Origin: Acidobacteriota bacterium | Lineage (GTDB): Bacteria > Acidobacteriota > Vicinamibacteria > Vicinamibacterales > CAVVIG01 | Direction of reading: 5' to 3' | Assembly (NCBI GenBank): GCA_018268955.1 | Contig: JAFDVO010000036.1 | Location: 1 to 64,000, forward strand | DNA: 64,000 nt | In this document: positions 5,553-46,394 of the stretch, piece by piece | How the letters are laid out: the number at the start of each line of letters is the position of its first letter | Numbering within the stretch: the first letter of the stretch is position 1 | Made by a program: the position numbers and the translations under genes | The notes under the pieces: generated by a model | Told to the model about the DNA's origin: nothing | What the model saw: only the letters and a program-made list of their open reading frames with translations | Databases searched by the model: none

Positions 5553-6720
5553 TCGCGCCATCGCCCGTCCGTCCGCCCCCTCGCGCCTCATGCTCGCGCA
5601 CGAGGCGTTCGATGGTGCGGTACTCCTGATACTGCCGCCACGCGACCTTCAGAACGCCGACGGTCGGCACCGCCAGGCACACCCCCAGCACGCCTCCCGC
5701 GAACGCACCCAACCAGATCGCCGCGACCACGGCCAGCGGGTGCAGGTGCATGGCCTCTCGGATCAGCCTCGGGTAGACGACGTAGTCCTGCAGCACGCGG
5801 AGTCCGCCGAGAAACGCGAGCACGAGCAGGACCTGGGATGGCGCCGCCACGGCCGTCGCCGAGATGGCGACCGCCAGCGGGCCGGCAATCGGAATCGTCT
5901 CGAGCAGCCCCGCGACGATGCCGAGCATCGCGGCGTTCGGCAGCTGCATCAGGGCGAAGCCCGTACCGCAGATGAGCCCGACGATGAGCGCCGAAAGCGC
6001 CTGTGCCCGCGTATACGACGCCAGGACGATGTTGACCTGGCGGAGGAACTGGTCGATGCGCCACTTCAGGTGGGGCGTGGGCAGCGCGCGCGCCGCCGAG
6101 CGATGGAACGCCGGCCACTGCGCGACCAGCAGCAGCGCGATGAGCGGCACGCCGGCGAGCCACGGCACGACCAGCCGCGCACGGATGATCTCGGCGCCGA
6201 CGACCTTCACCTCGTCCTGCACCTGCAGCGACACGCGATGGTTCATGGCGCGCAGCAGGCGCCGCGTCTCTCGCTCCACGACGAACCGCTCATGCCATCG
6301 CTCGCTCGCACGCACTTGCGACGCGAAGCGTGCCACGTGCCTGGGCACTTCACGCGCGACGTCGGGCACGGTCCCCGCGATCTTGTCGCCCCATATTGCC
6401 CACACGGGCGCCACGATCAGCGCCACTCCGGCGTACACGATCAGGACCGCCAGGATCCGCGACGGGCGCCAGCCGCCGAACCAGGCCGGCGCGACGCGAC
6501 GCATCAGCAGGACGGCTGGAAGCACCAGGTAGGCGAGTGCCACCGACAGGAACGCGATGACGAAGACGCCTTTGACCGCGACCCAGTCGAACGCCACCGC
6601 GACGACCATCAGCGCCAGGAACAGCGCCGCCGCGCCGAGGTTCAGCGCCACGGTCCCGTCAGGTGGCGGGAACTCGGTGACGTCGTCGAGCGACGAGGCC
6701 GACGCGGCTGGAGCAGGCAT
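5545..6720 (-). CDS. AI-2E family transporter (membrane permease)
   Basis: A 391-residue protein with about seven to eight hydrophobic segments, two closely spaced near the N-terminus and a cluster in the second half, with a large soluble stretch in between (about residues 110-190). This is the pattern of the AI-2E_transport family. Members include TqsA, UPF0118 proteins and sodium/proton antiporters, so the substrate cannot be named. The conserved late motif is seen in the DYVVYPRLIREAMHLHPL region. TAACCT at 6726-6731, five bases before the ATG, may be the -10 element. Confidence 0.85.
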   Translation of the reverse strand: MPAPAASASSLDDVTEFPPPDGTVALNLGAAALFLALMVVAVAFDWVAVKGVFVIAFLSVALAYLVLPAVLLMRRVAPAWFGGWRPSRILAVLIVYAGVALIVAPVWAIWGDKIAGTVPDVAREVPRHVARFASQVRASERWHERFVVERETRRLLRAMNHRVSLQVQDEVKVVGAEIIRARLVVPWLAGVPLIALLLVAQWPAFHRSAARALPTPHLKWRIDQFLRQVNIVLASYTRAQALSALIVGLICGTGFALMQLPNAAMLGIVAGLLETIPIAGPLAVAISATAVAAPSQVLLVLAFLGGLRVLQDYVVYPRLIREAMHLHPLAVVAAIWLGAFAGGVLGVCLAVPTVGVLKVAWRQYQEYRTIERLVREHEARGGGRTGDGAIS

Positions 6721-6805
6721 CTGGGAGGTTAGACGTCTGAAGTTGGAGTTCCGAACTCAGGATCCGGAACTTTCAGTGGATGGTTCGGTCACGAGGCTGC
6801 TCATT

Positions 6806-7144
6806 CTAGTAGCGAGGAATCGACGGATCTACCGCAAGTGACCACGCGTCGATGCCGCCGATGAGGTTGTAGACACGCGTGAAACCCTGCTGCACGCAGT
6901 ACTCGGCCGCTGCCTGGCTGCGGATACCGTGGTGGCACTGGAAGACGAGAGTGGTGTTCCGGTCGAGCGTCAGCAGGTGGTCGCCGTAATCCCGGTCGAG
7001 GAGCCGCGACCCCTCTATGTGCGCGAGTTCGCGCTCCAGCGGCGTTCGGACGTCGATGAACTCGAAGGTGTCGCCCGCGTCCATCATCGCCTTCAACTCC
7101 GGCGCGGTGATCTGTGAGACACCGCCAAGTACGCCAGTGGGCAT
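6806..7144 (-). CDS. Single-domain rhodanese-like protein
   Basis: A 112-residue protein made of one rhodanese domain. The active-site loop is FQCHHGIRSQ, with the catalytic Cys followed by a six-residue loop, as in GlpE and other sulfurtransferases. The entry motif FEFIDVRTPLEREL holds the conserved Asp and Arg. It probably moves sulfane sulfur in the cytoplasm. It follows the repeat-rich gap at 7145-7421. Confidence 0.88.
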   Translation of the reverse strand: MPTGVLGGVSQITAPELKAMMDAGDTFEFIDVRTPLERELAHIEGSRLLDRDYGDHLLTLDRNTTLVFQCHHGIRSQAAAEYCVQQGFTRVYNLIGGIDAWSLAVDPSIPRY

Positions 7145-7421
7145 GAGGTGATCATCGCAGAGAACGGGGGCTAAGGCGGAGGTTGGAGGTTGGGGACCGG
7201 GGACAGTGGACGAGGACGGAGGTTGGAGGTTGGGCTGCGTCAGGCTGAAGCCTGCCGCCTACGATGGCATTTTTGCATTCCTGGATTCCTGCATTCCTGC
7301 ATTCCTGCATTCCCGCATTCCCGCATTCCTGCATCCCTGCATCCCTGCATCCCTGCGTTGCCGCGTTCTTGCGTGTGTGCGTTACGGGCTGGCGGGCTCG
7401 CCGCGCGAGGGCCGGAGTGGG
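7145..7421. repeat. Repeat-rich intergenic gap with period-8 tandem array
   Basis: Two copies of GGAGGTTGGAGGTTGGG (near 7178 and 7220) are followed by about 13 tandem 8-base units from 7275 to 7378. The leading units read GCATTCCT, then decay to GCATCCCT and GCGTTGCC. No gene or tRNA is visible. Similar period-8 arrays occur at 18674-18729 and 52971-53034. Confidence 0.8.
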
Positions 7422-8306
7422 TCAGCGCTCCGCCCGCAGCGCTGTCAGTGCGGTCAGCGCGTCGACGCGCGCGTCGCCGATCCGCAGCGCCCAGTGCAGG
7501 TGTGGGCCGGTGACGCGCCCGGTGGCGCCGACGAGGCCGACGATGGCGCCGCGGTCCAGCCGGTCACCCTCGTGGACGTCTACGCGGGAGAGGTGCGCAA
7601 GCGTCGAGAACACGCCGCGCCCGTGGTCGATGATGACGGTGTTGCCCGTGAAGAACAGGTCGCGGGCGACGACCACCTGGCCGTCGGCTGGCGCCTTGAT
7701 CGGTGTGCCGGCAGGGCTCAGGAAGTCGGTTCCGGCATGCGGGTTCCGTGGCTGCCCGTTGAAGACGCTGCGCGTCCCGAAGCTGCTGTTTGCGGGTTGC
7801 GGAACGGGTCGGATGAACCCCGTGCGCCACAGCGGCTCGGTCGAGGTTCGCGCGTATGCGTCACGAATGAGCGCCGCCTCCGACGCGATTCTGGCCTGCT
7901 GCTCCGGATCGGGGTTCACAAACGCCGGGGCGACCCGCAGGACACGGCGGCGAAAACGTTTTGGCGCGACCGACAGCGTCACCTGACTGTCCAGATCGTC
8001 GGGCCCCACGGCATGTGCGAGCGCGACGTACGTGCCGGGACGGACGTCGAGGTCCACGCCGATCAACGCCTGCCATTCACCGTCAGCGACCCGGATCGTC
8101 GGCCAGCTCTCCCCGAACACCGTCAGTGACACGGCAACGGTCGAGGGCGGGGTGGCAATGCGCGCGACGACGGCCGCACCTGGCGGTGTCGCGCGCGGGA
8201 CAGTCACACGCAGAGCCTGGGCTGCAACCGGCGAGGCGCAGCCCAGTGTCAGGATGGACAGGAGGAGCGGGAGAAGACGCTGACGGCTAGCGGCGATGCC
8301 GTGCAT
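7422..8306 (-). CDS. M23 family metallopeptidase (LytM-type), exported
   Basis: A 294-residue protein. The N-terminus MHGIAASRQRLLPLLLSIL plus TLGC is a signal sequence that may be a lipoprotein signal or be cut after VAAQA. The C-terminal 130 residues are an M23 peptidase domain with the zinc-binding motifs HAGTD and GPHLHW, so it should cut peptidoglycan cross-bridges or act as an amidase activator. The middle region (about 30-130) is a beta domain. The ATG at 8306 is chosen because it gives the signal peptide; it overlaps the end of the HtrA gene by 20 bases, showing co-translation in the hsp20-htrA-M23 operon. The frame is open further upstream but only as a shadow of htrA. Confidence 0.87.
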   Translation of the reverse strand: MHGIAASRQRLLPLLLSILTLGCASPVAAQALRVTVPRATPPGAAVVARIATPPSTVAVSLTVFGESWPTIRVADGEWQALIGVDLDVRPGTYVALAHAVGPDDLDSQVTLSVAPKRFRRRVLRVAPAFVNPDPEQQARIASEAALIRDAYARTSTEPLWRTGFIRPVPQPANSSFGTRSVFNGQPRNPHAGTDFLSPAGTPIKAPADGQVVVARDLFFTGNTVIIDHGRGVFSTLAHLSRVDVHEGDRLDRGAIVGLVGATGRVTGPHLHWALRIGDARVDALTALTALRAER

Positions 8307-9480
8307 CCGACACGATCGGCACCTTGACGTCGCTGGTCCGGCCATTGCGGAAGACCCTGATGGTTGCCGTCGAACCGATCTTCGCGTCCGCCACGAGGCG
8401 ATAGAGCTGCGACGGGTCATCGATCCGGGTGCCATTGAACCCGACGATCACGTCACCCGGCCGCACGCCCGCGTCATACGCTTCCGAACCGCGCATCATG
8501 CGGATCACGATGGCGCCCTGCGTGTTTGGTGCTCCGATCTCCTCCGCGATCTGCGGCGTGACCTTGTCGATCGCGACGATGCCGCCGATCGTGCCGCGCT
8601 GCACCTCGCCGTACTTCATCAGGTCGTTGACGACGTGCTGGACCAGGTTGCTGGGCACCGCGAATCCGATGCCCTGGTACCCGCCGCTCTGGCTGAAAAT
8701 CCCGGTGTTGATGCCGATCAGTTCGCCGCGCGTGTTGATCAGCGCACCGCCAGAGTTGCCGGGATTGATCGCGGCGTCGGTCTGGATGAAGTCCTCGTAC
8801 TGCGAGAAGCCCACGTTCGATCGACCGGTGGCGCTGATGATCCCGGCCGTCACGGTCCGGCTCAACTGGAACGGGCTACCGATCGCGAGCACCCACTCAC
8901 CGACCTGCAGCTTGCTCGAATCGCCCCACGGGATCGCCGGCAGGCCTTTCAGGTCCACCTTCAGGAGTGCGATGTCGGTCGCTGGGTCGGTCCCGATGAC
9001 GCGCCCTTTCACCTCACGGTTGTCACTCAGGGCGACGGTGATCTCCCGGACGTTCTCGCCGACGACGTGGTTGTTGGTGACGATGTAGCCGTCGGGGGAG
9101 ATGATGACCCCCGATCCGAGGCTCAGGGAACGCCGGTCGCGCGACCCGTACATGTCCTGATCGCCGAAGAAGTACTGGAAGAACGGATCGTTTTCGAACG
9201 GGGAGTTCGGGCGGCGGACGACCTGCAGCGACGAGATGTTCGCCACACCCTTCACGCCCTGGCCGGCGATTTTCGTGAAGTCGGGGCCAGTGGCCAGCGT
9301 GCCGGACACCTGCGGCGTGGGAGCGGTCCGCTGCTGCTGCGCTTCAGCGGCTGGCGCGGGTTGGGAGAGGGCAGGCTCGGCGACCGAATCGGCCGCATAG
9401 CGCATGCGGCCGGTCAACACCATGCCGGCCGTGAACCCGGCGACCACCAGGACGAATGTCAGGAGGAACCGGCGGAGCAT
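8287..9480 (-). CDS. HtrA/DegP-like serine protease
   Basis: A 397-residue protein. One N-terminal hydrophobic segment (about 3-25) anchors or exports it to the periplasm. The trypsin-like domain has the catalytic His in VTNNHVVG, the Asp in DPATDIALLKV and the Ser in NPGNSGGALI. One PDZ domain follows (about 295-385; GVRPGDVIVGFNG). A single PDZ domain makes it closer to DegS or single-PDZ HtrA enzymes than to DegP, which has two. It sits three bases after the hsp20 gene and overlaps the M23 peptidase gene. Confidence 0.92.
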   Translation of the reverse strand: MLRRFLLTFVLVVAGFTAGMVLTGRMRYAADSVAEPALSQPAPAAEAQQQRTAPTPQVSGTLATGPDFTKIAGQGVKGVANISSLQVVRRPNSPFENDPFFQYFFGDQDMYGSRDRRSLSLGSGVIISPDGYIVTNNHVVGENVREITVALSDNREVKGRVIGTDPATDIALLKVDLKGLPAIPWGDSSKLQVGEWVLAIGSPFQLSRTVTAGIISATGRSNVGFSQYEDFIQTDAAINPGNSGGALINTRGELIGINTGIFSQSGGYQGIGFAVPSNLVQHVVNDLMKYGEVQRGTIGGIVAIDKVTPQIAEEIGAPNTQGAIVIRMMRGSEAYDAGVRPGDVIVGFNGTRIDDPSQLYRLVADAKIGSTATIRVFRNGRTSDVKVPIVSDARHRR

Positions 9481-34599: not shown

Positions 34600-34608
34600 A
34601 GTGTCCCT

Positions 34609-34620
34609 ACTATAATGTAA
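34609..34620 (-). promoter_or_regulatory. -10 element of gdhA overlapping the attachment core
   Basis: Read on the minus strand, TATAGT (34614-34609) lies nine bases before the gdhA ATG. It overlaps TATAATG of the attachment core. The uninterrupted locus would have had a plus-strand TATAAT for the mutase gene and this minus-strand box sharing the same bases. Confidence 0.4.
34611..34617 (+). other. attL core (TATAATG)
   Basis: TATAATG at 34611-34617 also occurs at 44715-44721. To its right, inside the element, is TAA then GCAGCA (34621-34626). At the other end TGCTGC then AA precede the second copy. Joined in a circle these give TGCTGC + AA + TATAATG + TAA + GCAGCA, with perfect inverted arms. 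Confidence 0.65.
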
Positions 34621-34634
34621 GCAGCATGATGCAG

Positions 34635-34660
34635 AACGGCCCGGAAAACCGGGCCGTTTT
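34635..34660 (+). terminator. Strong hairpin terminator at the left end of the element
   Basis: AACGGCCCGG (34635-34644), loop AAAA, CCGGGCCGTT (34649-34658), then TT. On the plus strand it is a good intrinsic terminator. In the circular form it lies about 145 bases after the integrase stop and would end that transcript; in the integrated state the two are at opposite ends. Confidence 0.75.
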
Positions 34661-34668
34661 GCGTTTGT

Positions 34669-34686
34669 AGCTAACAGGTAGCTAAC
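34669..34686 (+). repeat. Left arm-site pair (AGCTAAC, 11-base spacing)
   Basis: AGCTAAC at 34669-34675 and 34680-34686. The same pair with the same 11-base period is found at 40712-40729 and 44578-44595, all in one orientation. One helical turn of spacing suits side-by-side binding of integrase arm-binding domains. Confidence 0.6.
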
Positions 34687-34742
34687 GGACGGGTGTGGCG
34701 TGCGCAAGTGAGCGTGATGCGCCGCTGAGTGGGGAGATTGGT

Positions 34743-36305
34743 TTAGACCAGTTCGGCGTCGGCCACAACGCGCAGCCGCACCACGAACCGGCTGCCGAGG
34801 CCGAGACCGTCGCTGTAGCCCTGCAAGGTGCCGCCGTGCAGTTCGACCAGTCGGCGCGCCACAGCCAACCCCACACCATAGCTGCCTCGGTCGCCACCCA
34901 CGCTGGTGAAGAGATCGAAAACCCGCGGCAGCACGGCAGGGTCGATACCGCGTCCCACATCGGACACTGACAGCTCCGCTTCGGTGCCGAGAACAGTGAT
35001 GGCCGTCGCGACGCGGTCGCCCAGGTTCGAATACTTCGAGGCGTTCGATAGCAAGTTCCCGAGCACTTGTAGCAGCCGCTGCACATCCACGCGCACAAGC
35101 ACAGGCGCCGACGGCACGTGCACGGTGACCCGCTGATGCCGACGCTCGTAATCCGAAGCGGCTGTGTCCACGGCTTCGGCGAGCACTTCGCGCAGGTCCA
35201 CCACCTGCTGCTCCAACTCGACCTCCCCGCGAACGATGCGCGCGGTATCGAGCAGGTCGTCCAAGATGCGCGACATGTGCTTGGTTTGCCTGTCCAATAC
35301 AGCGAGCGCGCGCTGATGCGCTGAAGCGGGGGTGTCGGGCTGCAACATGCGCAACGCACCCTGAATGGCGTGAACGGGCTGCCGCAGTTCGTGGCCCACG
35401 ACCGACAACCACTGCTCCTTTCGCCGGCTCTCGTCGTCGGCGCGGAACGCAGTGGCTTTGAGGTTGGTGATGTCGGCACTGCTGCCCACCATGCCTACAC
35501 ATGCACCGGTGTCGTCCAGGCGCGGAGCACCGTAACTGCCAATCCAACGCCACTCGCCGTCGGCGCGGCGCACGCGGGTCTCGGCTTCGTAGGGCACTCC
35601 ACGAGCGAGACAATCGAGAAAGTGAGACACGTAGGCGTGGCGGTCGTCCGGATGTAGCAGCGGTTGCCAGTTGTCGCCGCGAGCCTCTTCCTCCGTGGCG
35701 CCGAAGAATGACAACCACGCGCGATTAACGAATTCGAGTTTGCCGCTGCCGTCGTGCACCCAAATCATGAGCGGCGTGGTGTCGGCCATTGTGCGGAACC
35801 GTCGTTCCGATTCCGCGAGTCGCGCTTGCGTGCGCAGGTTGTTGACCGCGACCGCCATCGCGTCTGCCAATTGAGAGAGCGCGTCGATCTCCCAATCGCT
35901 GGCCTCGTGTGGTGTGGCCCAATATGCGCCGATGGCGCCGATGGCCGGTTCCCCCGACGGCACCAGCAACAGCCCTGTGACAAAGGTTTGTCGATACAGG
36001 TCGTGCGGCACGCGGTCGTCCAACATGACGTCGGGAATGGCAACGGGCCGCTGCGACTGCATGGCCAGACCAGACACACAGTCCTTGGCGGGAAAGCGTC
36101 GCCCTTTCCAGAGCGGCCCGATGGCCTCCTCGTCGATGCAGTAACAGGATGCCCCGTCGAGGAGCACGACGCTGGCGCCATCGGCATCCACAACCTGCCG
36201 GGCCGCGTGACTGACCGCCGCGCTGATGGCGGGTAGGTCCTGAGCGGCAAGCAGACTACGCATGGCCTGAAGCAGCAGAGAACTGTGGCGTTCGAGCGGA
36301 GACAC
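34743..36305 (-). CDS. Cytosolic GAF-PAS sensor histidine kinase
   Basis: A 520-residue protein without membrane segments: GAF (about 10-155), PAS with PAC (about 165-285), HisKA dimerisation domain (about 295-360) with the H-box VVGHELRQPVHAIQG, and a HATPase_c domain (about 395-512) with N-box NLLSNASKYS, G1 box DVGRGID and G2 box GSYGVGLAVARRLVE. All residues for autophosphorylation look intact. No response regulator is encoded in the element; it may act on a host regulator. GTG start with GGGGAA four bases upstream. Transcription runs toward gdhA. Confidence 0.9.
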   Translation of the reverse strand: MSPLERHSSLLLQAMRSLLAAQDLPAISAAVSHAARQVVDADGASVVLLDGASCYCIDEEAIGPLWKGRRFPAKDCVSGLAMQSQRPVAIPDVMLDDRVPHDLYRQTFVTGLLLVPSGEPAIGAIGAYWATPHEASDWEIDALSQLADAMAVAVNNLRTQARLAESERRFRTMADTTPLMIWVHDGSGKLEFVNRAWLSFFGATEEEARGDNWQPLLHPDDRHAYVSHFLDCLARGVPYEAETRVRRADGEWRWIGSYGAPRLDDTGACVGMVGSSADITNLKATAFRADDESRRKEQWLSVVGHELRQPVHAIQGALRMLQPDTPASAHQRALAVLDRQTKHMSRILDDLLDTARIVRGEVELEQQVVDLREVLAEAVDTAASDYERRHQRVTVHVPSAPVLVRVDVQRLLQVLGNLLSNASKYSNLGDRVATAITVLGTEAELSVSDVGRGIDPAVLPRVFDLFTSVGGDRGSYGVGLAVARRLVELHGGTLQGYSDGLGLGSRFVVRLRVVADAELV

Positions 36306-36788
36306 TGATTCCCCGTGAAGTTGCGCGGTCGAGTTGTCGCGAGCACGTCTATTCTACCGAAGGCGGCGTAATTTGTGGCGCAAGTAAAGCTTGGGCTGGC
36401 TCGGGTAACCTCTTAGCGACTCGCGGGTTGCCCCGTAGCGACCCGCTGCGACGGTCCCTAAACGGCGGTAGGGTGTAGGCCGCCGACCTGCCAGTTACGC
36501 GCGCAATGTGAGCCAAAACTGCTGAGCGGCCCACCTAAGCACAACAATATGCGCAACTTTTGTTGTGCACGGCACCGAAAAGCGTGTTAACCTAACTGCG
36601 CACGTTGGCGCGGCGCACGCGCCAGCACAACAGTAACCAGCAGGCACCGCAACACAGCCACGGCTGTGGACACGAAGGGCAACCAGCGGTGACCCTGCGG
36701 CGGAACAATCCCCCGCCGTCGCGCAAGGACACCTTCTCTTAGCGCGAAGAACTAGCCGCACCCTACGCGGGTGCAGGGAGTTCTTCGC
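36306..36788. promoter_or_regulatory. Divergent regulatory gap of the element
   Basis: A 483-base gap between the kinase (minus) and the XRE gene (plus), with no supported gene. It contains a 9-base dyad GCACAACAA/TTGTTGTGC (36539-36568), a third half-site GCACAACA at 36625-36632, a GC-rich palindrome near 36606-36622 and a long hairpin at 36743-36789 that covers the start of the XRE gene. It is the natural control region for lysogeny-like regulation. Confidence 0.6.
36539..36568. promoter_or_regulatory. Operator-like inverted repeat
   Basis: GCACAACAA (36539-36547) and TTGTTGTGC (36560-36568), perfect arms separated by 12 bases; a further half-site GCACAACA is at 36625-36632. A likely binding site for the XRE-family protein encoded downstream. 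Confidence 0.45.
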
Positions 36789-36789
36789 G
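36743..36789 (+). promoter_or_regulatory. RNA hairpin enclosing the ribosome binding site of the XRE gene
   Basis: CGCGAAGAACT (36743-36753) pairs perfectly with AGTTCTTCGCG (36779-36789). Inside, GCACCC (36758-36763) pairs with GGGTGC (36769-36774) around a 5-base loop. The GGAG ribosome binding site (36777-36780) lies in the inner strand and the first G of the GTG is the last paired base. Translation would need this 11-base-pair stem to open. Confidence 0.6.
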
Positions 36790-37037
36790 TGACCCTGCTT
36801 ACGTATGTTCGTCGGAATGAAGGGCTGACACAGGCCGATTTGGCGGCTCGTGCCGGTCTGCATCGTCTGACCGTTTGGGGAATCGAACGTGGTCGGGTGA
36901 ACCCGAACCCCGACGAACTCGAACGGCTCGCCACCGCGCTGCACGTGCAGCCACCCGAAGCCCTGTTGGAGCAGGTCGAAGTGGTGTGGCCGCCGCACCA
37001 GCGCACCGCCAGCACCGAACAGGCGGTGACGGCATGA
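36789..37037 (+). CDS. XRE-family helix-turn-helix regulator
   Basis: An 82-residue protein with a lambda-repressor-like HTH (NEGLTQADLAARAGLHRLTVWGIERG). It has no dimerisation or cleavage domain, so it resembles small Cro-type regulators of mobile elements. The GTG at 36789 is preferred over one at 36771 because GGAG is 8 bases upstream and both bases fall within a strong RNA hairpin. Its stop overlaps the next start as ATGA. Confidence 0.85.
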   Translation: MTLLTYVRRNEGLTQADLAARAGLHRLTVWGIERGRVNPNPDELERLATALHVQPPEALLEQVEVVWPPHQRTASTEQAVTA

Positions 37038-37426
37038 GCCCGCGTCCTCCGCTGAAACAGCGCGACCGCGAAAGCGCACTGGTGCAGGCCGACGCCGAAG
37101 CGACCCGCCTGTGCGCGGCTCTCTACGAAGCCCGCGACCGGATTCTCGATACCGAAGTCGAGCTCTCGCGGCTGCGAGCCGCAATCGAGGAGACACGCCA
37201 GGACCTTCGCAAACGCGAAGCGATGTTTGCGGAGCTGAAGCAGGCATTCGAACGGCGCGTGGACCTGTTGTGCCAGTCCGACGCCGAGTGGACCGCTATC
37301 GAAATTGCGCGTCCCAGTCCCAGCTATCAAGTGTCGGAACCGCTGCGGTCGCGTGCACGACGTCTGATGAACGAGGGCTTTACGGCCCTGTGGCAGCGCT
37401 CGCGTGAACAGGCGGTGGCGCGATGA
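37034..37426 (+). CDS. Coiled-coil protein of unknown function
   Basis: A 130-residue protein, mostly helical. Residues 10-80 have heptad-like charge patterns (TEVELSRLRAAIEETRQDLRKREAMF) and the end is basic. I do not recognise a family. It starts with an ATGA overlap on the XRE gene and its stop overlaps the next gene in the same way, so the four genes from 36789 to 37871 are one translationally coupled unit. Confidence 0.65.
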   Translation: MSPRPPLKQRDRESALVQADAEATRLCAALYEARDRILDTEVELSRLRAAIEETRQDLRKREAMFAELKQAFERRVDLLCQSDAEWTAIEIARPSPSYQVSEPLRSRARRLMNEGFTALWQRSREQAVAR

Positions 37427-37638
37427 ACCTCGTTATCTCGCGCCACACCCCGGTAGCCGACCTGCCCGAACTGCTGTCCGTGGAGGAAGCGGCCACGTGG
37501 CTCGGCATCGGGCGCTCGCTGGCCTATGACCTCGTCGGCCGCGGCGACCTCGCCTCCGTGCGGCTCGGCCGGTTGCTGCGCGTGCCGCGTGCGGCACTGG
37601 CCGCGATGGTCGAGCAGACGCAGGCGGTGAGCGCATGA
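37423..37638 (+). CDS. Excisionase-like HTH_17 DNA-binding protein
   Basis: A 71-residue protein with the winged HTH of the excisionase/MerR-like family: LLSVEEAATWLGIGRSLAYDL followed by VRLGRLLRVPRAALAAMVE. Such proteins act as excisionases or as small transcription activators in phage satellites (AlpA-like). Coupled by ATGA overlaps on both sides. Confidence 0.8.
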   Translation: MNLVISRHTPVADLPELLSVEEAATWLGIGRSLAYDLVGRGDLASVRLGRLLRVPRAALAAMVEQTQAVSA

Positions 37639-37871
37639 CGGTAACGGTGCTGACCATTCCGCGTGCCGACCTGCCGTTGGCCGAACTGATGTTGCCGCGC
37701 ACCGGCGTGCGGTTGATGGGGAAGCGCCGCGTGCACTTCCTGTATTCGACTGACAAGCCGGTTGCGGGCCTCTCCTTCCGCGACGTTGACGGCACTCCCT
37801 TGGTGGAGTGCCGCAGCTTCGACTCCGAAGCCGACGCTCGCCGCTGGTGCGCCGAACAGGAGGTGCAGTGA
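37635..37871 (+). CDS. Small protein of unknown function
   Basis: A 78-residue protein, MTVTVLTIPRADLPLAELML at its start and with an acidic end (DSEADARRWCAEQ). No family recognised. It overlaps the previous stop (ATGA), and its TGA overlaps the ATG of the primase gene by one base. Confidence 0.55.
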   Translation: MTVTVLTIPRADLPLAELMLPRTGVRLMGKRRVHFLYSTDKPVAGLSFRDVDGTPLVECRSFDSEADARRWCAEQEVQ

Positions 37872-40357
37872 TGAACGCTGCTGCACCCGACCTGTTGCAC
37901 CGCTACTCGGACCTCGGCTTCCGGCTGGTGTTTTACCCGTCGAAGTCGAAGGCGCCGAACGAGAAAGGCTGGACCGAGAAGATCTACACACTGGCCGACT
38001 ACCAGCCCGGTGACAACGTGGGCGCGATGCTCGGGCACGAGATCGCGCCCGGCAGGTTCCTGGCCGACTTCGATATTGACAGCTACCACGCCAGTCTGGT
38101 GACGCGGCTGCTGCCGCGCACCGACTTCGCCTTCGGCCGCGCGAGCAAGCCTGTCTCGCACCTGATGGTGACCACGTCGCGTCCGGTGGTGTCCTACCAA
38201 TACCGCGACGTTGACGACGCCAAGACGGTGCTGATTGAACTGCGCGGCACCAAGCAGGACGGCTCTGTGGGTCTGCAGACCATGATGCCGCCGAGCGTGC
38301 ACCCGAACGGCGAGACCGTGACGATGCACCCGAGCGCGGCACTGGCGCTGGCGCACTACGAAGCCGAATTGGCCGAGCGCGGAGTGCGCCATTACGCCAT
38401 CGGCAGCATCTTGGTTCGCAATCTGCGGCATCGCGGCTTCGGCCACGAGGTGCGACTGGCCATCTCCGGCTTCCTGTTGCAGAGCGGGATGACGCAGCAG
38501 GACGTGATTGTGCTGGGCGAGGCCATCGCCACGGAGACAGGCAACGACGTTGATGATGTTGCGCCTTCCGTCCGCGATACCGCAAAGCGCATCCGCGAGG
38601 GCGAGAAGGTGACCGCCGCTGGCGCACTGGCCACGGCCATCGGCGAGCGTGGCCGTGCCGTTGTCGCTCGTATCCGCGAGTGGCTCGGCGTCGGCGTCTC
38701 GAACGGCGACATCGTGATGGACGCCGGAAAGCTGCCCGACGTAGTCGACCATGCCGAAGCCGCGTTGCTGGCCAGCCGCGCACCGATTTACCAGCGTGGC
38801 GGAACGTTGATGCGCACCGTGCGGCTCGACTCGCCCATCGACGAAGAGCGGGTGCGTCGGAAGGCAGGTGCCGTAGTCCTGAAGGAAGTGGGCTCGTCGT
38901 GGCTGATTGAGCAGATGGCGCGGTCGGCCCGGTGGCTCCGTCGAAGCGGCGACGAACTGAAGCTGGCCGACCCGCAACCGAAATACGCCAACACGCTGAT
39001 TGAGCGTGGTGAGTGGCGTTTCCCGCTGCTGCGGGCCGTGCTGACTGCACCGACGCTGGACATCGACGGCCGCATCGTCGAGACGCCCGGCTATGACGCC
39101 GATACGGGACTGCTGCTCGACTTCGCACCCGGTGCCTTCCCGCCGGTGCCTGTGAACCCGACTCGCGAGGACGCACTGGCTGCGATTGCGAGACTCGAAT
39201 ACCCGTTCCGGCTGTTCCCGTTCGAGACGCCAGCAGCGCGAGCCGTCTTTCTCTCTGCCATGTTGAGCGCCATTGTGCGCCCGGTGCTGCGCAACGCGCC
39301 GATGCACAACTTCGACGCGCCGAGCGCGGCGACAGGAAAGTCGAAGCTGGCTGCTGCCGTCGGTGTTTACGCGACCGGCGTTGAACCTCCCGCGATGAGC
39401 CAGGGCAAGTCGCCGGAAGAGGATGAGAAGCGACTGTCGACTGCGCTGGTCGCCGGCGACACGGTCGTGCACATCGACAACTGCGAGCGCGAGGTCGGCG
39501 GCGACTTTATCTGCAGCGTGCTGACCGAGGCCGTAGTGCAGGCGCGCATCCTCGGCTTGACCGAGCGCCGCTTGATACCCAACACGGCGCTTCTGTTGGC
39601 GTCGGGCAACAACCTCGTAATCGCGGGCGACTTGTGCACGCGCTCCGTTATCTGCCGTCTGGACGCCCAGATGGAACGGCCTGACACGCGGAGGTTCGAC
39701 TTCGAGCCGCTTGACGTGCTGCGTGCCCACCGTGCGCAGTTGGTGGTGGACGGGCTGACGGTGTTGCGCGCCTATCGTCTGGCGCAGCAGCGCGGCGAGC
39801 AGGCGACCGTTGACGGCCAGCCGCTGCGACCGATGCGGTCGTTCTCGGATTACGAGTGGATTCGAGGTGCGCTGGTCTGGCTCGGTTACGCCGACCCTGC
39901 CGACACGCAGCAGGCGGTGCTGGACAACGACCCGAAACGCGACGAAGTGCGGGACGTGATGGACGCGTGGTGGGAGCGCTTCGGTGACCGCGACGTGGAG
40001 GTGAGCGACATCCCGAATGTCGAGAAAGCGATGGACACCACGTATTCGATTGGCGAGGTGGAACGTGTTCGGATGATGGACCCGCTGTATCGCGCACTGA
40101 TGGAGACGGTGCCCGGCTGCCGCCTGAGTCGCGCGTGGAATGCGAAGGCCGTGGGCAAGTGGCTCTCGCACCAGCGGAAACGGATCGTCGGTGGTCGGCG
40201 CTTCGTTCCCCGGGAAGCGGGCAGCAAGCGGGTGACGTGGGCGTTGGTGGCGGCACAGGGCGGACACCAGCAGTCCGAACTCCCGGAGGCGCGCACCGAT
40301 GCCGAGGCTGCGAACGCCAGCAACGTGATGGTCCTCGGACCGGAGCGCGTGCAGTGA
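37871..40357 (+). CDS. Primase-polymerase with helicase-like ATPase domain
   Basis: A protein of 828 residues. The N-terminal part (about 1-190) resembles the bifunctional primase/polymerase domain: LGFRLVFYPSKSKAPNEKGW opens it, FLADFDIDSYHA provides the catalytic acidic pair and SHLMVTT the basic motif. The C-terminal part has a P-loop (APSAATGKSKLA, near 495) and a Walker B-like VVHIDNCE, as in helicase-type ATPases of phages and plasmids. It should start replication of the excised element. AGGAGGTG five bases before the ATG is the best ribosome binding site in the element. I infer the function from motifs only. Confidence 0.75.
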   Translation: MNAAAPDLLHRYSDLGFRLVFYPSKSKAPNEKGWTEKIYTLADYQPGDNVGAMLGHEIAPGRFLADFDIDSYHASLVTRLLPRTDFAFGRASKPVSHLMVTTSRPVVSYQYRDVDDAKTVLIELRGTKQDGSVGLQTMMPPSVHPNGETVTMHPSAALALAHYEAELAERGVRHYAIGSILVRNLRHRGFGHEVRLAISGFLLQSGMTQQDVIVLGEAIATETGNDVDDVAPSVRDTAKRIREGEKVTAAGALATAIGERGRAVVARIREWLGVGVSNGDIVMDAGKLPDVVDHAEAALLASRAPIYQRGGTLMRTVRLDSPIDEERVRRKAGAVVLKEVGSSWLIEQMARSARWLRRSGDELKLADPQPKYANTLIERGEWRFPLLRAVLTAPTLDIDGRIVETPGYDADTGLLLDFAPGAFPPVPVNPTREDALAAIARLEYPFRLFPFETPAARAVFLSAMLSAIVRPVLRNAPMHNFDAPSAATGKSKLAAAVGVYATGVEPPAMSQGKSPEEDEKRLSTALVAGDTVVHIDNCEREVGGDFICSVLTEAVVQARILGLTERRLIPNTALLLASGNNLVIAGDLCTRSVICRLDAQMERPDTRRFDFEPLDVLRAHRAQLVVDGLTVLRAYRLAQQRGEQATVDGQPLRPMRSFSDYEWIRGALVWLGYADPADTQQAVLDNDPKRDEVRDVMDAWWERFGDRDVEVSDIPNVEKAMDTTYSIGEVERVRMMDPLYRALMETVPGCRLSRAWNAKAVGKWLSHQRKRIVGGRRFVPREAGSKRVTWALVAAQGGHQQSELPEARTDAEAANASNVMVLGPERVQ

Positions 40358-40670
40358 GCACAGCCGTTTGCGGTTTGGCGGTTACGCGGTGTCGGACCGA
40401 GCCTGCCCGGATTGCGATGCACCCTGTGCAATTGGATTTGGGCCAGCTCGAAACTACACCGCCATACCGCCAAACCGCACCCGGCAGGCAAGCTGCACCC
40501 GGTTACAGGCGCGTCACCCGCGTTCGCCTCGGCACGCTTGTGCCCTGCCGTTCTGCACCCGCGATGCGCGCCGCGAACATCGCACGTCGCCTCGTGGGTC
40601 GCGGGAGCCAGGTCCTCGCGGCCCCGACCGCGCTGCCCGCGCCTAACAGAGTGTTAAACCGCTCGGCGCG

Positions 40671-40705
40671 CCGCGACGTTTTGCTCTGCATTCCGTCGCG
40701 GTTTT
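40671..40705 (+). terminator. Intrinsic terminator inside the element
   Basis: CCGCGACG (40671-40678) pairs with CGTCGCGG (40694-40701) around a 15-base loop, followed by TTTT. It ends the left module (regulator to primase). An arm-site pair follows 6 bases later, as at the left end. Confidence 0.65.
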
Positions 40706-40711
40706 CGCGGC

Positions 40712-40729
40712 AGCTAACCAACAGCTAAC
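40712..40729 (+). repeat. Middle arm-site pair (AGCTAAC, 11-base spacing)
   Basis: AGCTAAC at 40712-40718 and 40723-40729. The bases after it (GGAATGGGATGG) resemble those after the left pair (GGACGGGTGTGG), and both pairs follow a terminator. Confidence 0.55.
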
Positions 40730-40732
40730 GGA

Positions 40733-41317
40733 ATGGGATGGCCAAAGGGCAAGCCGCAGACGCCCGAGCACCGCGCGAAGAACGCCGAGGGCGTGCGCCG
40801 CTGGCACCAGCGCATGTCGGCGGCGGAACGCGAGGCCTACATCGCCAAGCAGCAGGCCGCACAACCTCGCGGCCTGACGTTCGACCGTCGGATCTCGAAG
40901 CCGACGCCATTTGTGAAAGGACACAAGCCGATGCACACCCCTGAGGGCGTGGCGAAGATGGCCGAGAGCAAGCGCGAGCGCCGCATCCTCGCCGACCGTG
41001 TAATCGCGGCCACCAACGAGCGGTCCGAACGCATCGACCAGATTATCGAGAGCGTGCTGACCGGGCCACCCGCTGTCGCGCTCGCGTGGCTGACGAAGGC
41101 CGCCGAAATGGAACTGAAGCGGCGCGAGGCAGCACCCACCATCGCCGAGGCGCAGCCGTGGGTGGCCTACGCCACCGACGAGGAGCTGACCATCGTCGCC
41201 GACATCGCCGAGCGCTGCGAGGCACGCATGCGAGCCGGCGAGCGCCGAGCCGATGCGAAGCCACCCGCGCTGCCACCTGCCATCGACACCGAACCCGACG
41301 TGATGGTGCTGCGATGA
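40733..41317 (+). CDS. Basic phage-type protein, possible small terminase-like
   Basis: A 194-residue protein. The start GWPKGKPQTPEHRAKNAEG resembles the NUMOD3-like basic DNA-contacting segment found in phage proteins. The rest is helical, with NERSERIDQIIESVL and WVAYATDEELTIVADIAERCEARM in the second half. Position before the packaging-type genes and the basic head suggest a DNA-binding role such as a small terminase subunit, but this is a guess. First gene of the coupled block 40733-42607. Confidence 0.55.
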   Translation: MGWPKGKPQTPEHRAKNAEGVRRWHQRMSAAEREAYIAKQQAAQPRGLTFDRRISKPTPFVKGHKPMHTPEGVAKMAESKRERRILADRVIAATNERSERIDQIIESVLTGPPAVALAWLTKAAEMELKRREAAPTIAEAQPWVAYATDEELTIVADIAERCEARMRAGERRADAKPPALPPAIDTEPDVMVLR

Positions 41318-41699
41318 AGCCGTCCGAGCTTATCGCCGCTGTCCGTAACCACGGAGCCACCATCGAGGCCACGCCCGAAGGTGAACTTCGCATCGAGGGC
41401 TGGCCCGCGCTGCCCCTCGACATTCGCACGCGCCTGCGCGAACAGCGCGAGGCCGTGGCACTGCTGCTCGCTGCCGAACGTGCCAAGCGCGAGACCGACA
41501 GCACACCGACCATCGCCCCGCGTGACTACGCCGCCCTCGGCCTGTCGGTCGTGAACGGTGTAGTGACGCACCCGCTCGGCGACCACGTGGCCGCCGACAT
41601 CCTTGCCGGTCGCATCTCGCGCGCCCGCGCTATCGAAATGCGTAAACAGGCGGAGCAGTTCGGACGTGAACTGCGGCACGCCAGATTGTGGAGAGGATA

Positions 41700-41700
<1 letters not shown>
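41314..41700 (+). CDS. TubC-like docking-domain protein
   Basis: A 128-residue protein. Residues 1-50 (MKPSELIAAVRNHGATIEAT, then EGELRIEGW) read like the TubC N-terminal docking domain, a small fold first seen in non-ribosomal peptide synthetases but also scattered in phage and plasmid proteins. The second half, ending in GRELRHARLWRG, is basic. No enzyme motif is seen. ATGA overlap with the gene before. Confidence 0.6.
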
Positions 41701-42115
<415 letters not shown>

Positions 42116-42119
<4 letters not shown>

Positions 42120-42607
42120 CCATTTACAACGCCGACGCGGCACGCGAAGCGCAGAAGCGGCTGGACGAACTGACGGCGCTGACCGAATCGCGGGAGCGCG
42201 TGCTGGCCATCCTCGAGGACAGGCAGCAGAAGCTGGCCGACCTGACCGAACGCTACCGCACCACCGTGATGGTCGAAGCCGACTACGCGCACGACCGGGC
42301 CATGTTGCAGGCCGACATCGAGGCGCTCTCGACCACCGGCAGGCAGGCGACCGGGACGCAGGAGGTCTGGACCCTGATGAAGCAGGTGGGCTGGGGCCTG
42401 CGTGACCTCGACCTGCGCATCGAGCGGCTGCGCCGCGAATACGAGGACTGGCAGCGCCGCGCCACCACCAACCCCGAGGGCACGGCCATGTATCGCCTCG
42501 TTCGCGGGAACCACTACCGCGATGGTCGCCGCGTGCAGCCCGGCGAGGTGGTTGAACTGACGCACCGGCAGGCCGAGGCCTGGAGCGATTTGTTCGAACC
42601 CGTTTAG
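42116..42607 (+). CDS. Phage-type coiled-coil protein
   Basis: A 163-residue protein. The first 120 residues are a long helix with heptads (TALTESRERVLAILEDRQQK and RDLDLRIERLRREYEDWQ). The last 40 form a small beta domain, GNHYRDGRRVQPGEVVELTH, a pattern seen at the end of several phage structural or head-completion proteins. ATGA overlap with the gene before. Function is not known. Confidence 0.6.
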
Positions 42608-42841
42608 CGGAGGGGAAGCTGACAGGTGCTGCGGGTGTGCGCCTGAACCAAACCAGTGCTGGTCCCCTCCGCCAGTCCGTTGCTGCGTTCGTTCTTCGCA
42701 GGGTCGAACGCACCGGGCTGACACGCGAGCCGGCACTTGGAACACCTCTGGCCGTGGGCGCGCGGCCAGCGTTAGCCGGAGCGGAGGCTGCTCCCCGCTG
42801 TCGGCACGCGCCCACCTTTATCGACTCTGGAGAACGCGACG
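42608..42841 (+). promoter_or_regulatory. Structured leader before the decoration-like gene
   Basis: A 234-base gap. GCGGAGGGGA (42607-42616) is a perfect inverted repeat of TCCCCTCCGC (42663-42672), and further on CTGGCC/GGCCAG and GGAGC/GCTCC can pair. A GGAGA ribosome binding site lies before the ATG at 42842. It may be an mRNA leader that sets the level of the capsid-type protein, or a small RNA; no tRNA is seen. Confidence 0.4.
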
Positions 42842-43261
42842 ATGAACAACACGATTGCACTGACTACGACGCCGCAGCCTGTTCCGAGTGAGGACGCCAA
42901 AGCCGCCGAAGCCCTGATGCCCGGCTACCTGGTGACCCTGAACAGCGCGGGCGATGCTGTGAAGCACCCGACCGCCGGTGCCGCTGCTGCCCGCACGTTT
43001 GCCCTCGAACGCGATGAGATGGGCAAGACCATCGACACACCCTACGCCGTGAACGACACCGTGAAGGTGGGCACCTTTGCCCGAGGCCAGCGACTGCTGG
43101 CGTGGCTCCCGGCCGGTGCCACGGTAGCCGTAGGCGACCCGCTGGAAAGTGCCGGTAACGGTCTGCTACGACCCGTAACCACTGGCGTGGCGCTGGTGCG
43201 TGCCCTACAGGCTGTGACCAACCCAGCGACCGCCGTGCGGGTGCGCGTGGAGGTGCTGTAG
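42842..43261 (+). CDS. Capsid decoration-like (DUF2190-type) protein
   Basis: A 139-residue protein, beta-rich and Ala/Val/Gly rich. The pattern LMPGYLVTLNSAGDAVKHPT then VNDTVKVGTFARGQRLLAWL and VGDPLESAGNGLL is that of head decoration or DUF2190 proteins, which bind the outside of phage capsids. It is the only capsid-type gene in the element. If the element is a satellite, this could remodel or mark a helper capsid. Confidence 0.65.
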   Translation: MNNTIALTTTPQPVPSEDAKAAEALMPGYLVTLNSAGDAVKHPTAGAAAARTFALERDEMGKTIDTPYAVNDTVKVGTFARGQRLLAWLPAGATVAVGDPLESAGNGLLRPVTTGVALVRALQAVTNPATAVRVRVEVL

Positions 43262-43360
43262 GCGCGAGGCGGTGATTGTCCGCCCGACTCGGCGACTGCC
43301 ACACTTATTAGGGTAGTTGGAACAGCAACAAACGGCGTCACACAACGGAAGGATGTCTGT

Positions 43361-44590
43361 ATGCGAGGCACAGTAATTCGGCGTTACAAGGGGTCCTACA
43401 GCATCGTGCTGGACCTCGGATATGCGGTGGACGCCGCGACCGGCAAACGGAAGCGGCAGCAGAAGTGGATTACGTTTCGCGGCACGAAGAAGCAGGCCGA
43501 GCAGCACTGCAACGACCTCGTGGGCAAGGCCAATCGGAAGGAGTTTGTCGAACCGAGCAAGATGACGGTGGGTGAGTGGCTGGACCACTGGCTCGACGTG
43601 GCCTGCAAGCCACCGCGTCGGCGACCGCGCACCTACGAGACCTACAGGAGCACCGTGGACCAGCACCTGAAGCCGGGCCTCGGGCACCTTCGTCTGCAGG
43701 AGTTGCAGGCCATGCACATCGAGCGCTACCACGCCGAGCGCACGCACCTGTCGGCCGGAACGCGACAGCTGCACCAAGCCGTATTGACCACCGCGCTGAA
43801 GTCGGCCGTGAAGGCGCGGCTGCTGTATCGGTCGGTGGCGGCCGACGTGGAAGGGAAGCCGCACCCGCACCGCACCGCCGACGACGTGATTGCGAACTGC
43901 TGGACCGCCGAGGAGGCTCGCGCCTTCCTCGCCGCTACCAAGACCGAACCGCTGCAGACCCGCACGTTCTTTGCGCTGGCGCTGGATACCGGTGCCCGGA
44001 AGGGCGAGTTGCACGGCATCCGGTGGGATGACATCGACCTCGACACCGGCACGCTGCGCATCGTCCGGCAGTTGGAGGACCCCGGCAAGGTGCGCCGCCG
44101 CGAGCACGCGGGCACCAAGACCGAACCGGCCTTTGGCCCGACTAAGACCAAGCGTGCGCGGACGGTCGACCTCGGCCCGGACACCATCCGCCTGCTGCGC
44201 GAGCACAAGCGGGCGCAGGCGGAACTGAAGATGCAGAACCGCACCACCTACCGCGACTATGGGCTGGTGTTCGCCCGCGAGGTGCGCGAGACCAAGAACC
44301 TGATGGGCGAGCTCGGCATGCCGCTGCCGACCTCGACGTTGGGTGGCATCGTCTTTAAGCGGCTGATTGCAGCAGCAGGCGTGAAGCGCATTACCTTCCA
44401 CGGACTGCGGCACACCTGCGCCACGCTGCTGCTGAACGTGGGCGAGCCGATTAAGGTTGTGTCCGAACGGCTCGGCCACACCAACGTGATGATTACGATG
44501 AACACCTACGCGCACGTGATGCCGGGAATGCAGAAGGCTGCGGCCACACGGCTCGGTGCGCTGCTGCACGGCGAGGCAGCTAACGGGTAG
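43361..44590 (+). CDS. int: Tyrosine recombinase (integrase)
   Basis: A 409-residue integrase. Residues 1-60 form an arm-binding AP2-like domain (GSYSIVLDLGYAVDAATGK, KQAEQHCNDLV), 65-165 a core-binding SAM-like domain, and the rest the catalytic domain. The catalytic residues are Arg in DTGARKGEL, Lys in TKTKRARTV, HGLRH, LGHTN and the Tyr nucleophile in MNTYAHV. GGAAGGA lies 8 bases before the ATG. Its stop codon is inside the right arm-site pair. It drives integration at the TATAATG core. No terminator follows before the mutase gene. Confidence 0.95.
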   Translation: MRGTVIRRYKGSYSIVLDLGYAVDAATGKRKRQQKWITFRGTKKQAEQHCNDLVGKANRKEFVEPSKMTVGEWLDHWLDVACKPPRRRPRTYETYRSTVDQHLKPGLGHLRLQELQAMHIERYHAERTHLSAGTRQLHQAVLTTALKSAVKARLLYRSVAADVEGKPHPHRTADDVIANCWTAEEARAFLAATKTEPLQTRTFFALALDTGARKGELHGIRWDDIDLDTGTLRIVRQLEDPGKVRRREHAGTKTEPAFGPTKTKRARTVDLGPDTIRLLREHKRAQAELKMQNRTTYRDYGLVFAREVRETKNLMGELGMPLPTSTLGGIVFKRLIAAAGVKRITFHGLRHTCATLLLNVGEPIKVVSERLGHTNVMITMNTYAHVMPGMQKAAATRLGALLHGEAANG

Positions 44591-44595
44591 CTAAC
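44578..44595 (+). repeat. Right arm-site pair (AGCTAAC, 11-base spacing)
   Basis: AGCTAAC at 44578-44584 and 44589-44595, overlapping the integrase stop. With the left pair it makes an 18-base direct repeat with one mismatch; because the right copy lies inside the integrase gene, it is more likely a binding site than the crossover site. Confidence 0.6.
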
Positions 44596-44675
44596 AAACG
44601 ACGCGCTACATGCCAACACCGCGCACTACAGGGCAGCACGTGAAGAGCCAGAAACACTAACAAAAACGCAACAAA

Positions 44676-44711
44676 CAGCACCGGCCAACACCAGCCACTA
44701 CAACGGTGCTG
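44676..44711. repeat. Inverted repeat next to attR
   Basis: CAGCACCG (44676-44683) and CGGTGCTG (44704-44711), 20 bases apart, just inside the right end; the second arm overlaps TGCTGC of the core site. It may be part of the integrase or excisionase binding region. Confidence 0.45.
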
Positions 44712-44714
44712 CAA

Positions 44715-44721
44715 TATAATG
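44715..44721 (+). other. attR core (TATAATG), also the -10 of the mutase gene
   Basis: TATAATG at 44715-44721, preceded by TGCTGC (44707-44712) and AA. TATAAT lies nine bases before the ATG at 44730, so the crossover took place inside the likely -10 box of the mutase gene. Confidence 0.6.
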
Positions 44722-44729
44722 AAGTTCAC

Positions 44730-46394
44730 ATGGGTGCGACGGCCGACACCGACCGCATGCGGTGGCAGCGCGAGACGCTGGAGCCGGCGCTGACGAAGGC
44801 GCCTGAACGGGCCGCCACCTTCACGACCATTTCGGGCCATCCCATCCATCGGCTGTATACGCCCGAGGATCTGGCAGCCCTTTCGGCCGAGGCGGACATC
44901 GCCGAGCCCGGCCGCTTTCCCTACACCCGAGGCATCCACGCCAGTGGGTACGCTGGCAAGCTCTGGACCATGCGGCAGTTTGCCGGCTTCGGCACGCCGC
45001 AGGAGACCAACGCCCGCTACAAGGCGCTGCTGGCTGCCGGCGGCACCGGGCTGAGCGTCGCATTCGACCTCCCGACCCTTATGGGCCGGGATCCCGACCA
45101 CGACCTCTCGCTCGGCGAGGTCGGCAAGTGCGGCGTCAGCATCGCGTCGCTCGCCGACATGGAGGCGCTCTTCGAGGGGATTGACCTCGGCGCCATCACG
45201 ACGTCGATGACGATCAATGCGCCGGCCGCCATGATCTTCGCGATGTACCTCGTGGTCGCGGAGCGGCAGGGGGTCGACTGGCGGCAGATCTCCGGGACGA
45301 TCCAGAACGACATCCTGAAGGAGTACATCGCCCAGAAGGAGTTCATCTACCCGCCGCGGCCGTCGATGCGTCTCGTGACCGACACGTTCGCCTTCTGCAC
45401 GCGCGAGGTGCCGCGGTGGAACACGATCTCGGTGAGCGGGTATCACATCCGCGAAGCGGGTGCGACGGCGATCCAGGAACTGGCCTTCACGCTGCGGGAC
45501 GGCATCGAGTACGTGCAGTGGGGCGTGGAGGCGGGCCTGGACGTGGACGCCTTCGTGCCGCGCATCTCCTTCTTCTTCAACGCCCACTCCGACTTCTTCG
45601 AGGAGATCGCTAAGTACCGCGCGGCGCGCCGCATCTGGGCACGCGTGATGCGCGACCGGTTCGGTGCGAAGGACGAGCGGTCGTGGAAGCTGCGCTTCCA
45701 CACGCAGACGGCGGGCGTCTCGCTCACGGCGCAACAGCCCTGGAACAACGTTGTTCGCACGGCCATCCAGGCGTTGTCCGGGGTGCTCGGGGGCACGCAG
45801 TCACTCCACACGAACTCACTGGACGAAGCGCTCGCGCTGCCGACGGAGGAAGCGGCCACGCTGGCGCTGCGCACGCAGCAGGTGCTCGCGTTCGAGAGCG
45901 GCGTCACCGATCACGTGGACCCGTTCGGTGGTTCGTATTTCGTCGAGGCGCTGACGCGCGAGATGGAGGAGGGGGCAATCGCGTACTTCGACCAGATCGA
46001 CGCCGTGGGCGGGATGGTGGCGGCCATCGAACGAGGGTTCCCGCAGAACGAGATTGCGGAGGCGTCGTACCGGCTCCAGCAGGCGATCGAGCGCAGGGAG
46101 AAGACGATTGTTGGCGTCAACGACTTCGTGCAGCGCGAGGACACGCCGATCCCGACGCTCTACGTCGACGAGCAGGCCGCCGCCGCGCAGTTGGCCCGCT
46201 TGCGTGACCTGCGGGCCTCCCGCGACCAGGCCCGTGTCCGCGGGGCGCTGGATGCGATGAAGGCGGCCGCCGAGGGGCGCGATAACCTCATGCCGCCGAT
46301 CCTCGAGGCAGTGCGCGCTTACGCAACGCTCGGCGAGATGTGCGACGCGCTGCGCGAGGTCTGGGGCGAGTACGAGGAGATGGCGGTCATCTGA
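44730..46394 (+). CDS. Methylmalonyl-CoA mutase, large (catalytic) subunit
   Basis: A 554-residue TIM-barrel subunit without its own cobalamin domain. It has [24 protein letters not shown] and [11 protein letters not shown], all marks of the family. The Tyr before the WT motif (ASGYAGKLW) and the Arg in PPRPSMRLV occupy the two positions that select methylmalonyl-CoA (Tyr89 and Arg207 in the Propionibacterium enzyme), so methylmalonyl-CoA is the predicted substrate, not isobutyryl-CoA. It works with the B12 subunit at 46478. The ATG at 44730 is used; a frame from 44706 would begin inside the element. Confidence 0.9.

Follow-up and report, generated by a model that had tools for sequence, protein, structure and literature searches.

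The 64,000-nucleotide stretch analysed here (the window; contig JAFDVO010000036.1 of assembly GCA_018268955.1, from an Acidobacteriota bacterium of the order Vicinamibacterales) carries at positions 34611-44721 a precise insertion of 10.1 kb, designated E1, whose ends are set by two copies of a TATAATG core. The left copy (attL, 34611-34617) lies in the promoter region between divergent GDH and mutase genes, and the right copy (attR, 44715-44721) lies 8 bp upstream of the mutase ATG at 44730. In the same-genus genome G001 the site is empty (L019): GDH and mutase stand head to head across a gap of 33 bp that holds one TATAATG (GTCCCTAATATAATGAAAG). The head-to-head arrangement recurs with 35-60 bp spacing in G005, G006, G008 and G016, and TATAATG, which looks like a -10 box, is kept in most of the intergenic regions shown from close relatives. 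Comparison of occupied and empty sites demonstrates, at the level of sequence, that E1 was inserted by site-specific recombination at this 7-bp core between divergent genes; GC content gives no boundary signal. A preliminary description of this DNA had outlined an integrative block of 10.1 kb, which is borne out almost to the base, and had considered a block fixed by vertical descent without empty sites, which the empty sites in relatives exclude. Two sister elements, E2 and E3, lie in the same genome, and a cousin lies in the related genome G040.

The gene content of E1 was checked with Pfam, PHROGs, PDB sequence searches and AlphaFold models. At the left end, on the reverse strand, lies a cargo gene for an orphan sensor histidine kinase (34743-36305, GAF-PAS-HisKA-HATPase), which has a paralog, 48% identical, on contig C8 of the same genome; since the insert spans core to core, the kinase is part of it. 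The remaining genes are on the forward strand and begin with an XRE-type regulator (36771-37037; PF13560, 2e-12), an open reading frame (ORF) for a small coiled-coil protein (37034-37426), an HTH_17 excisionase/AlpA-type protein (37423-37638; PF12728, 2e-10; 66% identical to its E3 homolog), a 78-aa conserved protein also present in E2 and E3 (37635-37871), and a replicase with an N-terminal primase-polymerase (prim-pol) fold and a C-terminal helicase half (37871-40357; helicase half phrog_29234, 4e-108). An intergenic region (40358-40732) with inverted repeats (40363-40408 and 40440-40485) and a third AGCTAAC pair at 40712 is a possible replication origin. It is followed by a candidate small terminase subunit (TerS)-like protein, named from its slot in the gene order (40733-41317), a signature protein with the motif GVVTHPLGDxxAADIIAGR (41314-41700), a small protein whose C-terminal part is 67% identical to E2 (41688-42119), and a coiled-coil protein with a weak C-terminal DUF7210-like match, also found in E2 and E3 (42116-42607). 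The right end holds a capsid decoration-like protein as cargo (42842-43261; phrog_766, 8e-13) and a tyrosine integrase (43361-44590; PF00589, 7e-28). The integrase, excisionase-like, XRE, primase-polymerase/helicase and decoration-like families named in the preliminary description were all recovered by the Pfam, PHROGs, PDB and model evidence, and its statement that large terminase (TerL), portal, major capsid and tail genes are missing holds among the E1 ORFs searched with Pfam and PHROGs. E1 shows two general hallmarks of phage satellites, namely site-specific integration delimited by att repeats and the lack of a full virion gene set.

The E1 left end (34612-34690, forward strand) combines a core-type arm TAAGCAGC, a strong hairpin AGAACGGCCCGG-AAAA-CCGGGCCGTTTT and arm repeats AGCTAACAGGTAGCTAAC at 34669, and is 79% identical to the E3 left end over 78 bp. 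At the right end, arm-type repeats AGCTAACGGGTAGCTAAC can be read at 44578-44595 (forward strand). The pair AGCTAAC-N4-AGCTAAC occurs at 34669, 40712 and 44578, at both ends and once inside E1, with no other copy in the window, and its GCTAAC-N5-GCTAAC core had 0 occurrences in 200 first-order Markov simulations of 64 kb. In L064, L066 and L067, (T/A/G)GCTAAC repeats lie directly 3' of the integrase gene, with a GCTCAC variant in L065, a position that fits arm-type integrase sites. Excision would rebuild attP by joining the inner ends as GGTGCTGCAA-TATAATG-TAAGCAGCAT, with inverted core arms TGCTGC/GCAGCA; a predicted junction sequence diagnostic of excision is GGTGCTGCAATATAATGTAAGCAGCAT.

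Sequence comparison shows that E1 has similar counterparts in the order: with E2 and E3 of this genome and the G040 element it makes up a set whose complete members measure ~10-11 kb. E2 (contig C9, L014) encodes a large serine recombinase ending in tRNA-Glu and is delimited at 10.1 kb by a 16-bp copy of the tRNA-Glu end at 5831. E3 begins on contig C20 (L015) with a TATGATG core and an E1-like left end; at the end of contig C5 lies an integrase fragment (71% identical), followed by TATGATG just before purE, and C20 and C5 therefore probably represent the two ends of one element whose middle falls in an assembly gap. The attP arms of E3 would be TGCGGA/TCCGCA. The G040 element (L016) spans 10.8 kb between 49-bp copies of a tRNA-Pro 3' end and encodes an XRE regulator, a prim-pol, TerL (phrog_2, 2e-20), a 177-aa TerS-like ORF ahead of TerL, and an integrase. 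E1, E2 and E3 have in common the prim-pol half, the TerS slot, the signature protein and the coiled-coil protein, and they vary in the cargo at their ends: the kinase and decoration protein in E1, an Mrr-type nuclease in E2, and a 344-aa protein of no recognised family with MmeI-type restriction-modification in E3. Two of these cargoes are of defence type, the Mrr-like type IV restriction nuclease of E2 (L014 6238-6876) and the MmeI-type IIG restriction-modification enzyme of E3 (L015 13520-15217, cut by the contig end). As a separate observation, both tyrosine-integrase elements of the genome, E1 and E3, sit in a TATRATG, -10-like box between divergent genes, and in each a start codon follows the right copy at a distance of 8-10 bp (window 34600-34620 and 44710-44735; L015 ~5900; L017 ~10000); these two cases raise the possibility of a promoter-targeting specificity.

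The preliminary description had proposed looking for the block at other sites in related genomes; the sister and cousin elements do occupy different sites and are diverged from E1. They bear directly on its second suggestion, a strongly reduced prophage. Under this explanation, head and tail genes were deleted from a decaying prophage and the integrase, replication and a few structural genes were left by chance, as might be suspected from a head-decoration homolog that stands without a major capsid gene and from single modules with capsid-bearing relatives (L085, L081 and AZO_p2). Full-length prophages of which the block forms one end, which the preliminary description had also envisaged, were not found. 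Several elements, inserted at different sites and with different integrases, have this layout in common, E2 and the G040 element each possess both ends at ~10-11 kb, and the shared genes are open, with dN/dS point estimates of 0.20-0.70 in eleven shared-gene comparisons (rough values, since synonymous sites are strongly diverged). Because related elements keep this layout with genes under purifying selection, a reduced prophage is the less likely of the two suggestions, and we consider it quite improbable.

The replicase links E1 to both phages and plasmids. Its N-terminal half, which Pfam does not recognise, was modelled from five relatives (pLDDT 85.6); the best PDB match is the prim-pol of pRN1 ORF904 (1rni, E 2.4e-4, probability 1.00), and W34, D66, D68, D70 and H97 do not vary among nine relatives. 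According to the model, this half adopts the archaeo-eukaryotic primase (AEP) prim-pol fold. It is shared by the three replicases of the genome at 42-46% identity and is followed by three different helicase halves, phrog_29234, DUF5906 and VapE, in E1, E2 and E3. This is a modular swap of helicase halves within one genome (window 37871-40357; L014 8699-11065; L015 8425-10590). Alignment-based and whole-genome searches found relatives better than single-sequence searches, and a single-sequence search with the E1 replicase returned no relative in viral contigs or genome contigs. In the IMG/VR contigs L068 and L070, a relative of the E1 prim-pol is followed by TerL.

These matches also bring into view an integrative plasmid-like element, that is, a prim-pol replicon with an integrase, transferred through natural uptake, through general transduction or by mobilisation on a conjugative element, with the phage-like genes as incidental cargo. 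The E1 helicase half matches small plasmids, namely pMNOD06 (12.6 kb; 29% identity over the matched part) and plasmids of Psychrobacter and Streptomyces, the archaeal plasmid pRN1 has the same prim-pol fold, and neither E1 nor E2 has TerL. Small prim-pol plasmids such as pMNOD06 differ in being free plasmids, and no terminase-type genes are annotated in pMNOD06. Against a plasmid-like life, TerS-like and TerL genes recur in the cousins and prim-pol relatives sit in TerL-bearing viral contigs. Furthermore, no relaxase domain was recognised in the E1 ORFs scanned (oriT was not searched). We regard the plasmid-like explanation as possible and, on balance, unlikely.

Other E1 modules point towards phages. 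The E2 protein in the slot orthologous to 40733-41317 is a C..C..HGG protein found beside the terminase in Microbacterium phage Alakazam. Relatives of the E1 integrase (46-53%) were read in five other genomes of the order, and TerL-bearing gene sets adjoin integrase relatives in L063, L064 and L066 (phrog_2, 2e-27 to 1e-12); in L066 a homolog of the signature protein follows TerL. The decoration-like protein, whose gene is unique in the host genome, matches two solved decoration or stabilising proteins, and its profile matches PDB chain 9ocb, annotated as 'putative capsid decoration protein gp40' (3e-7). Its nearest IMG/VR relatives lie in phage head modules (L072-L074), in L072 immediately ahead of the gene for a virion structural protein (phrog_771, 2e-18); neither the decoration nor the coiled-coil protein had a match in the phage record collection. 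Separately, contig L117 (IMGVR_UViG_3300049571_000218, 11964 bp) encodes TerL, a head-maturation protease, a gpG-like gene and an integrase. Neither a portal nor a major capsid gene was seen in this contig, another satellite candidate.

Capsid-bearing relatives suggest a further origin, a tailless, cfPICI-like (capsid-forming) satellite lineage whose members seen here lost the capsid module and depend on another satellite or a phage. In AZO_p2, the closest helicase relative (37%) lies upstream of TerL, portal, a protease-capsid fusion and DUF2190; the stretch read there has no tail gene annotated. In L085, TerL, major capsid and portal genes lie beside an E1-type integrase. Yet such relatives share single modules only, the AZO_p2 gene table is incomplete, and E1, E2 and the G040 element have no capsid module. 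We consider this origin very improbable.

A non-coding element of ~215 nt (42605-42816, forward strand), a structured-RNA candidate with two proposed pseudoknots, separates the coiled-coil gene from the right-end cargo, in a region where E1, E2 and E3 share no gene. Homologs hold the same place in the gene order in E2 (L014 13341-13562), E3 (L015 13131-13345) and the G040 element (L016 5194-4994); identity is 73-78% among E1, E2 and E3, and reaches 90% over 70 bp for the E1-E3 pair. Helices are preserved through compensatory changes, as in H3 (CCAGTGCTGGT/GCCGGCACTTGG in E1, CCATCGTTGGT/GCCAACGATGG in E2, CCGTCGTCGGT/ACTGGCGACGG in E3), and helix H1 (GCGGAGGGGA/TCCCCTCCGC; GGGGAGGC/GCCTCCCC in E3) interleaves with H3, giving the first proposed pseudoknot; in the second, the loop of the hairpin CTGGCC..GGCCAG would pair with a 3' CGCGCCC. 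A covariance model built from E1, E2 and E3 picked up the G040 copy (E 2.5e-4 in 412 kb), which lies directly 3' of a coiled-coil-like gene on the same strand. In a structure-fitted alignment of the four sequences, which is biased towards the proposed structure, 89.6% of cells pair and both sides change in 17 of 50 pairs, as in none of 500 shuffles, and slid controls gave 2-5 pairs with changes on both sides. The corresponding three-sequence alignment has 91.0% of cells paired and nine pairs changing on both sides (0 of 500 shuffles). H1, which MAFFT misaligns in E3, is excluded from these counts, H6 is counted only among the three sequences, where it is invariant, and neither pseudoknot is counted whole.

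With a model that includes the G040 copy, 193 genomes of the class were scanned under strict filters, and these four copies alone came up. An RNA-like match in G075 (L119) was rejected, as it lies inside a protein-kinase gene (6407-9364). Rfam gave no match above the gathering score for 42605-42816 (best E 4), the minimum free energy of the element alone is not significant (z -0.75), and the RNAalifold consensus differs in part from the proposed structure. The topology descriptor by itself is weak in GC-rich shuffles, matching 33, 30, 110 and 5 of 500 for E1, E2, E3 and G040; the case for an RNA is therefore built on covariation, on the covariance-model match and on synteny. These lines of evidence indicate that the element has been conserved as a working part. 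It most likely acts as a transcribed RNA, a reading favoured over a DNA site because G-U pairs occur on the operon strand. It is a candidate for a previously undescribed RNA tied to satellite biology. A bolder proposal, to which we give little credence, is that the four elements form a new satellite lineage using a dedicated, doubly pseudoknotted ~215-nt RNA in packaging or helper take-over; any likeness to the phi29 packaging RNA would lie in this proposed role, not in sequence or fold.

We favour, with moderate confidence, the explanation that E1 is a helper-dependent, satellite-like integrated element, probably capable of its own excision and replication and, most likely, transmitted as a phage satellite. 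The XRE repressor would keep E1 silent; upon induction, the HTH_17 protein and the integrase would excise it as a circle, which the prim-pol replicase would copy. The TerS-like protein, or a whole terminase in some cousins, would then direct element DNA into a capsid and tail derived from the helper phage, and the decoration-like protein, presumably taken over from a phage, may attach to the helper-derived head or make it more stable. The kinase, decoration, restriction-modification and Mrr nuclease genes at the two element ends would be exchangeable cargo. Supporting this explanation are the empty site and core repeats, the sister elements, the delimited E2 and G040 elements, TerL in the latter, the TerL-linked integrase and prim-pol relatives, the prim-pol fold, dN/dS below 1, the decoration homology and the lack of a recognised relaxase.

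Several results weigh against it. The E1 helicase half is also similar to small-plasmid replicases, and E3 is interrupted by a contig gap. The TerS call on 40733-41317 rests on position, as no library recognised TerS, and a single-sequence AlphaFold2 model of the protein (pLDDT 64.6) was too poor for a structure search and has no bearing on the call. An alignment search with the signature protein found no relative in IMG/VR viral contigs, nor in genome contigs, and an exact search of IMG/VR for the RNA core motif found none. The helper prophage that the preliminary description had proposed to trace by its terminase or decoration protein did not appear: the host genome holds no TerL of phrog_2, no HK97-type capsid gene and no second decoration gene (other families were not searched), so no resident helper of these kinds is seen. 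The integrative and satellite-like part of the preliminary claim is supported by the empty sites, the sisters and the TerL-bearing cousin.

Among known systems, E1 comes close to the phage-inducible chromosomal islands (PICIs): it is of similar size, likewise has an integrase, a regulator, a primase-replicase and cargo genes, and lacks a capsid and tail module; some PICIs also have TerS, for which E1 offers a candidate (PMC6092414). It has the integrase, regulator and primase-replicase expected of a PICI; for the expected TerS homolog or helper cos/pac site there is the positional candidate at 40733-41317. Unlike PICIs, E1 has a pRN1-type prim-pol, a decoration-like protein and a structured non-coding element, and the helicase and integrase relatives found belong to other elements, phages and plasmids. 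As its TerS is assigned by position and E1 is known here from its genes, we describe it as PICI-like in layout and do not grant it membership. With capsid-forming PICIs (cfPICIs) and the satellites MulchRoom and MiniFlayer, the set shares terminase genes, present in E1 cousins, and a histidine kinase, encoded by the Streptomyces satellite MulchRoom and by E1 (PMC10690885). The preliminary description had judged a sensor kinase untypical of satellites; the kinase is there, and the MulchRoom example and its end-cargo position soften the judgement. In contrast to those systems, E1, E2 and the G040 element have a replicase and lack portal, major capsid and protease genes; E1 is not a cfPICI, as its own capsid, portal, protease and terminase module is absent. 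No portal, major capsid or tail gene was recognised in E1, E2 or the G040 element, and E3 has a sequence gap. The minimalist marine satellites (PICMI), whose hosts are Vibrionaceae, are broadly similar as reduced integrative elements without capsid-remodelling genes (PMC10803314). Finally, no P4 sid, delta, psu or alpha was named among the E1 library matches, and no P4 protein was searched directly.

A search pairing Acidobacteria with phage satellites found no paper in the literature collection consulted. If the host assignment is right, these elements would add a major group of soil bacteria to the hosts of satellites. The genome's three elements are related but have diverged, and their integrases, helicase halves and cargo differ; they illustrate recombination among such elements and their coexistence in one host. 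The ~215-nt element provides an RNA candidate with a testable structure and position.

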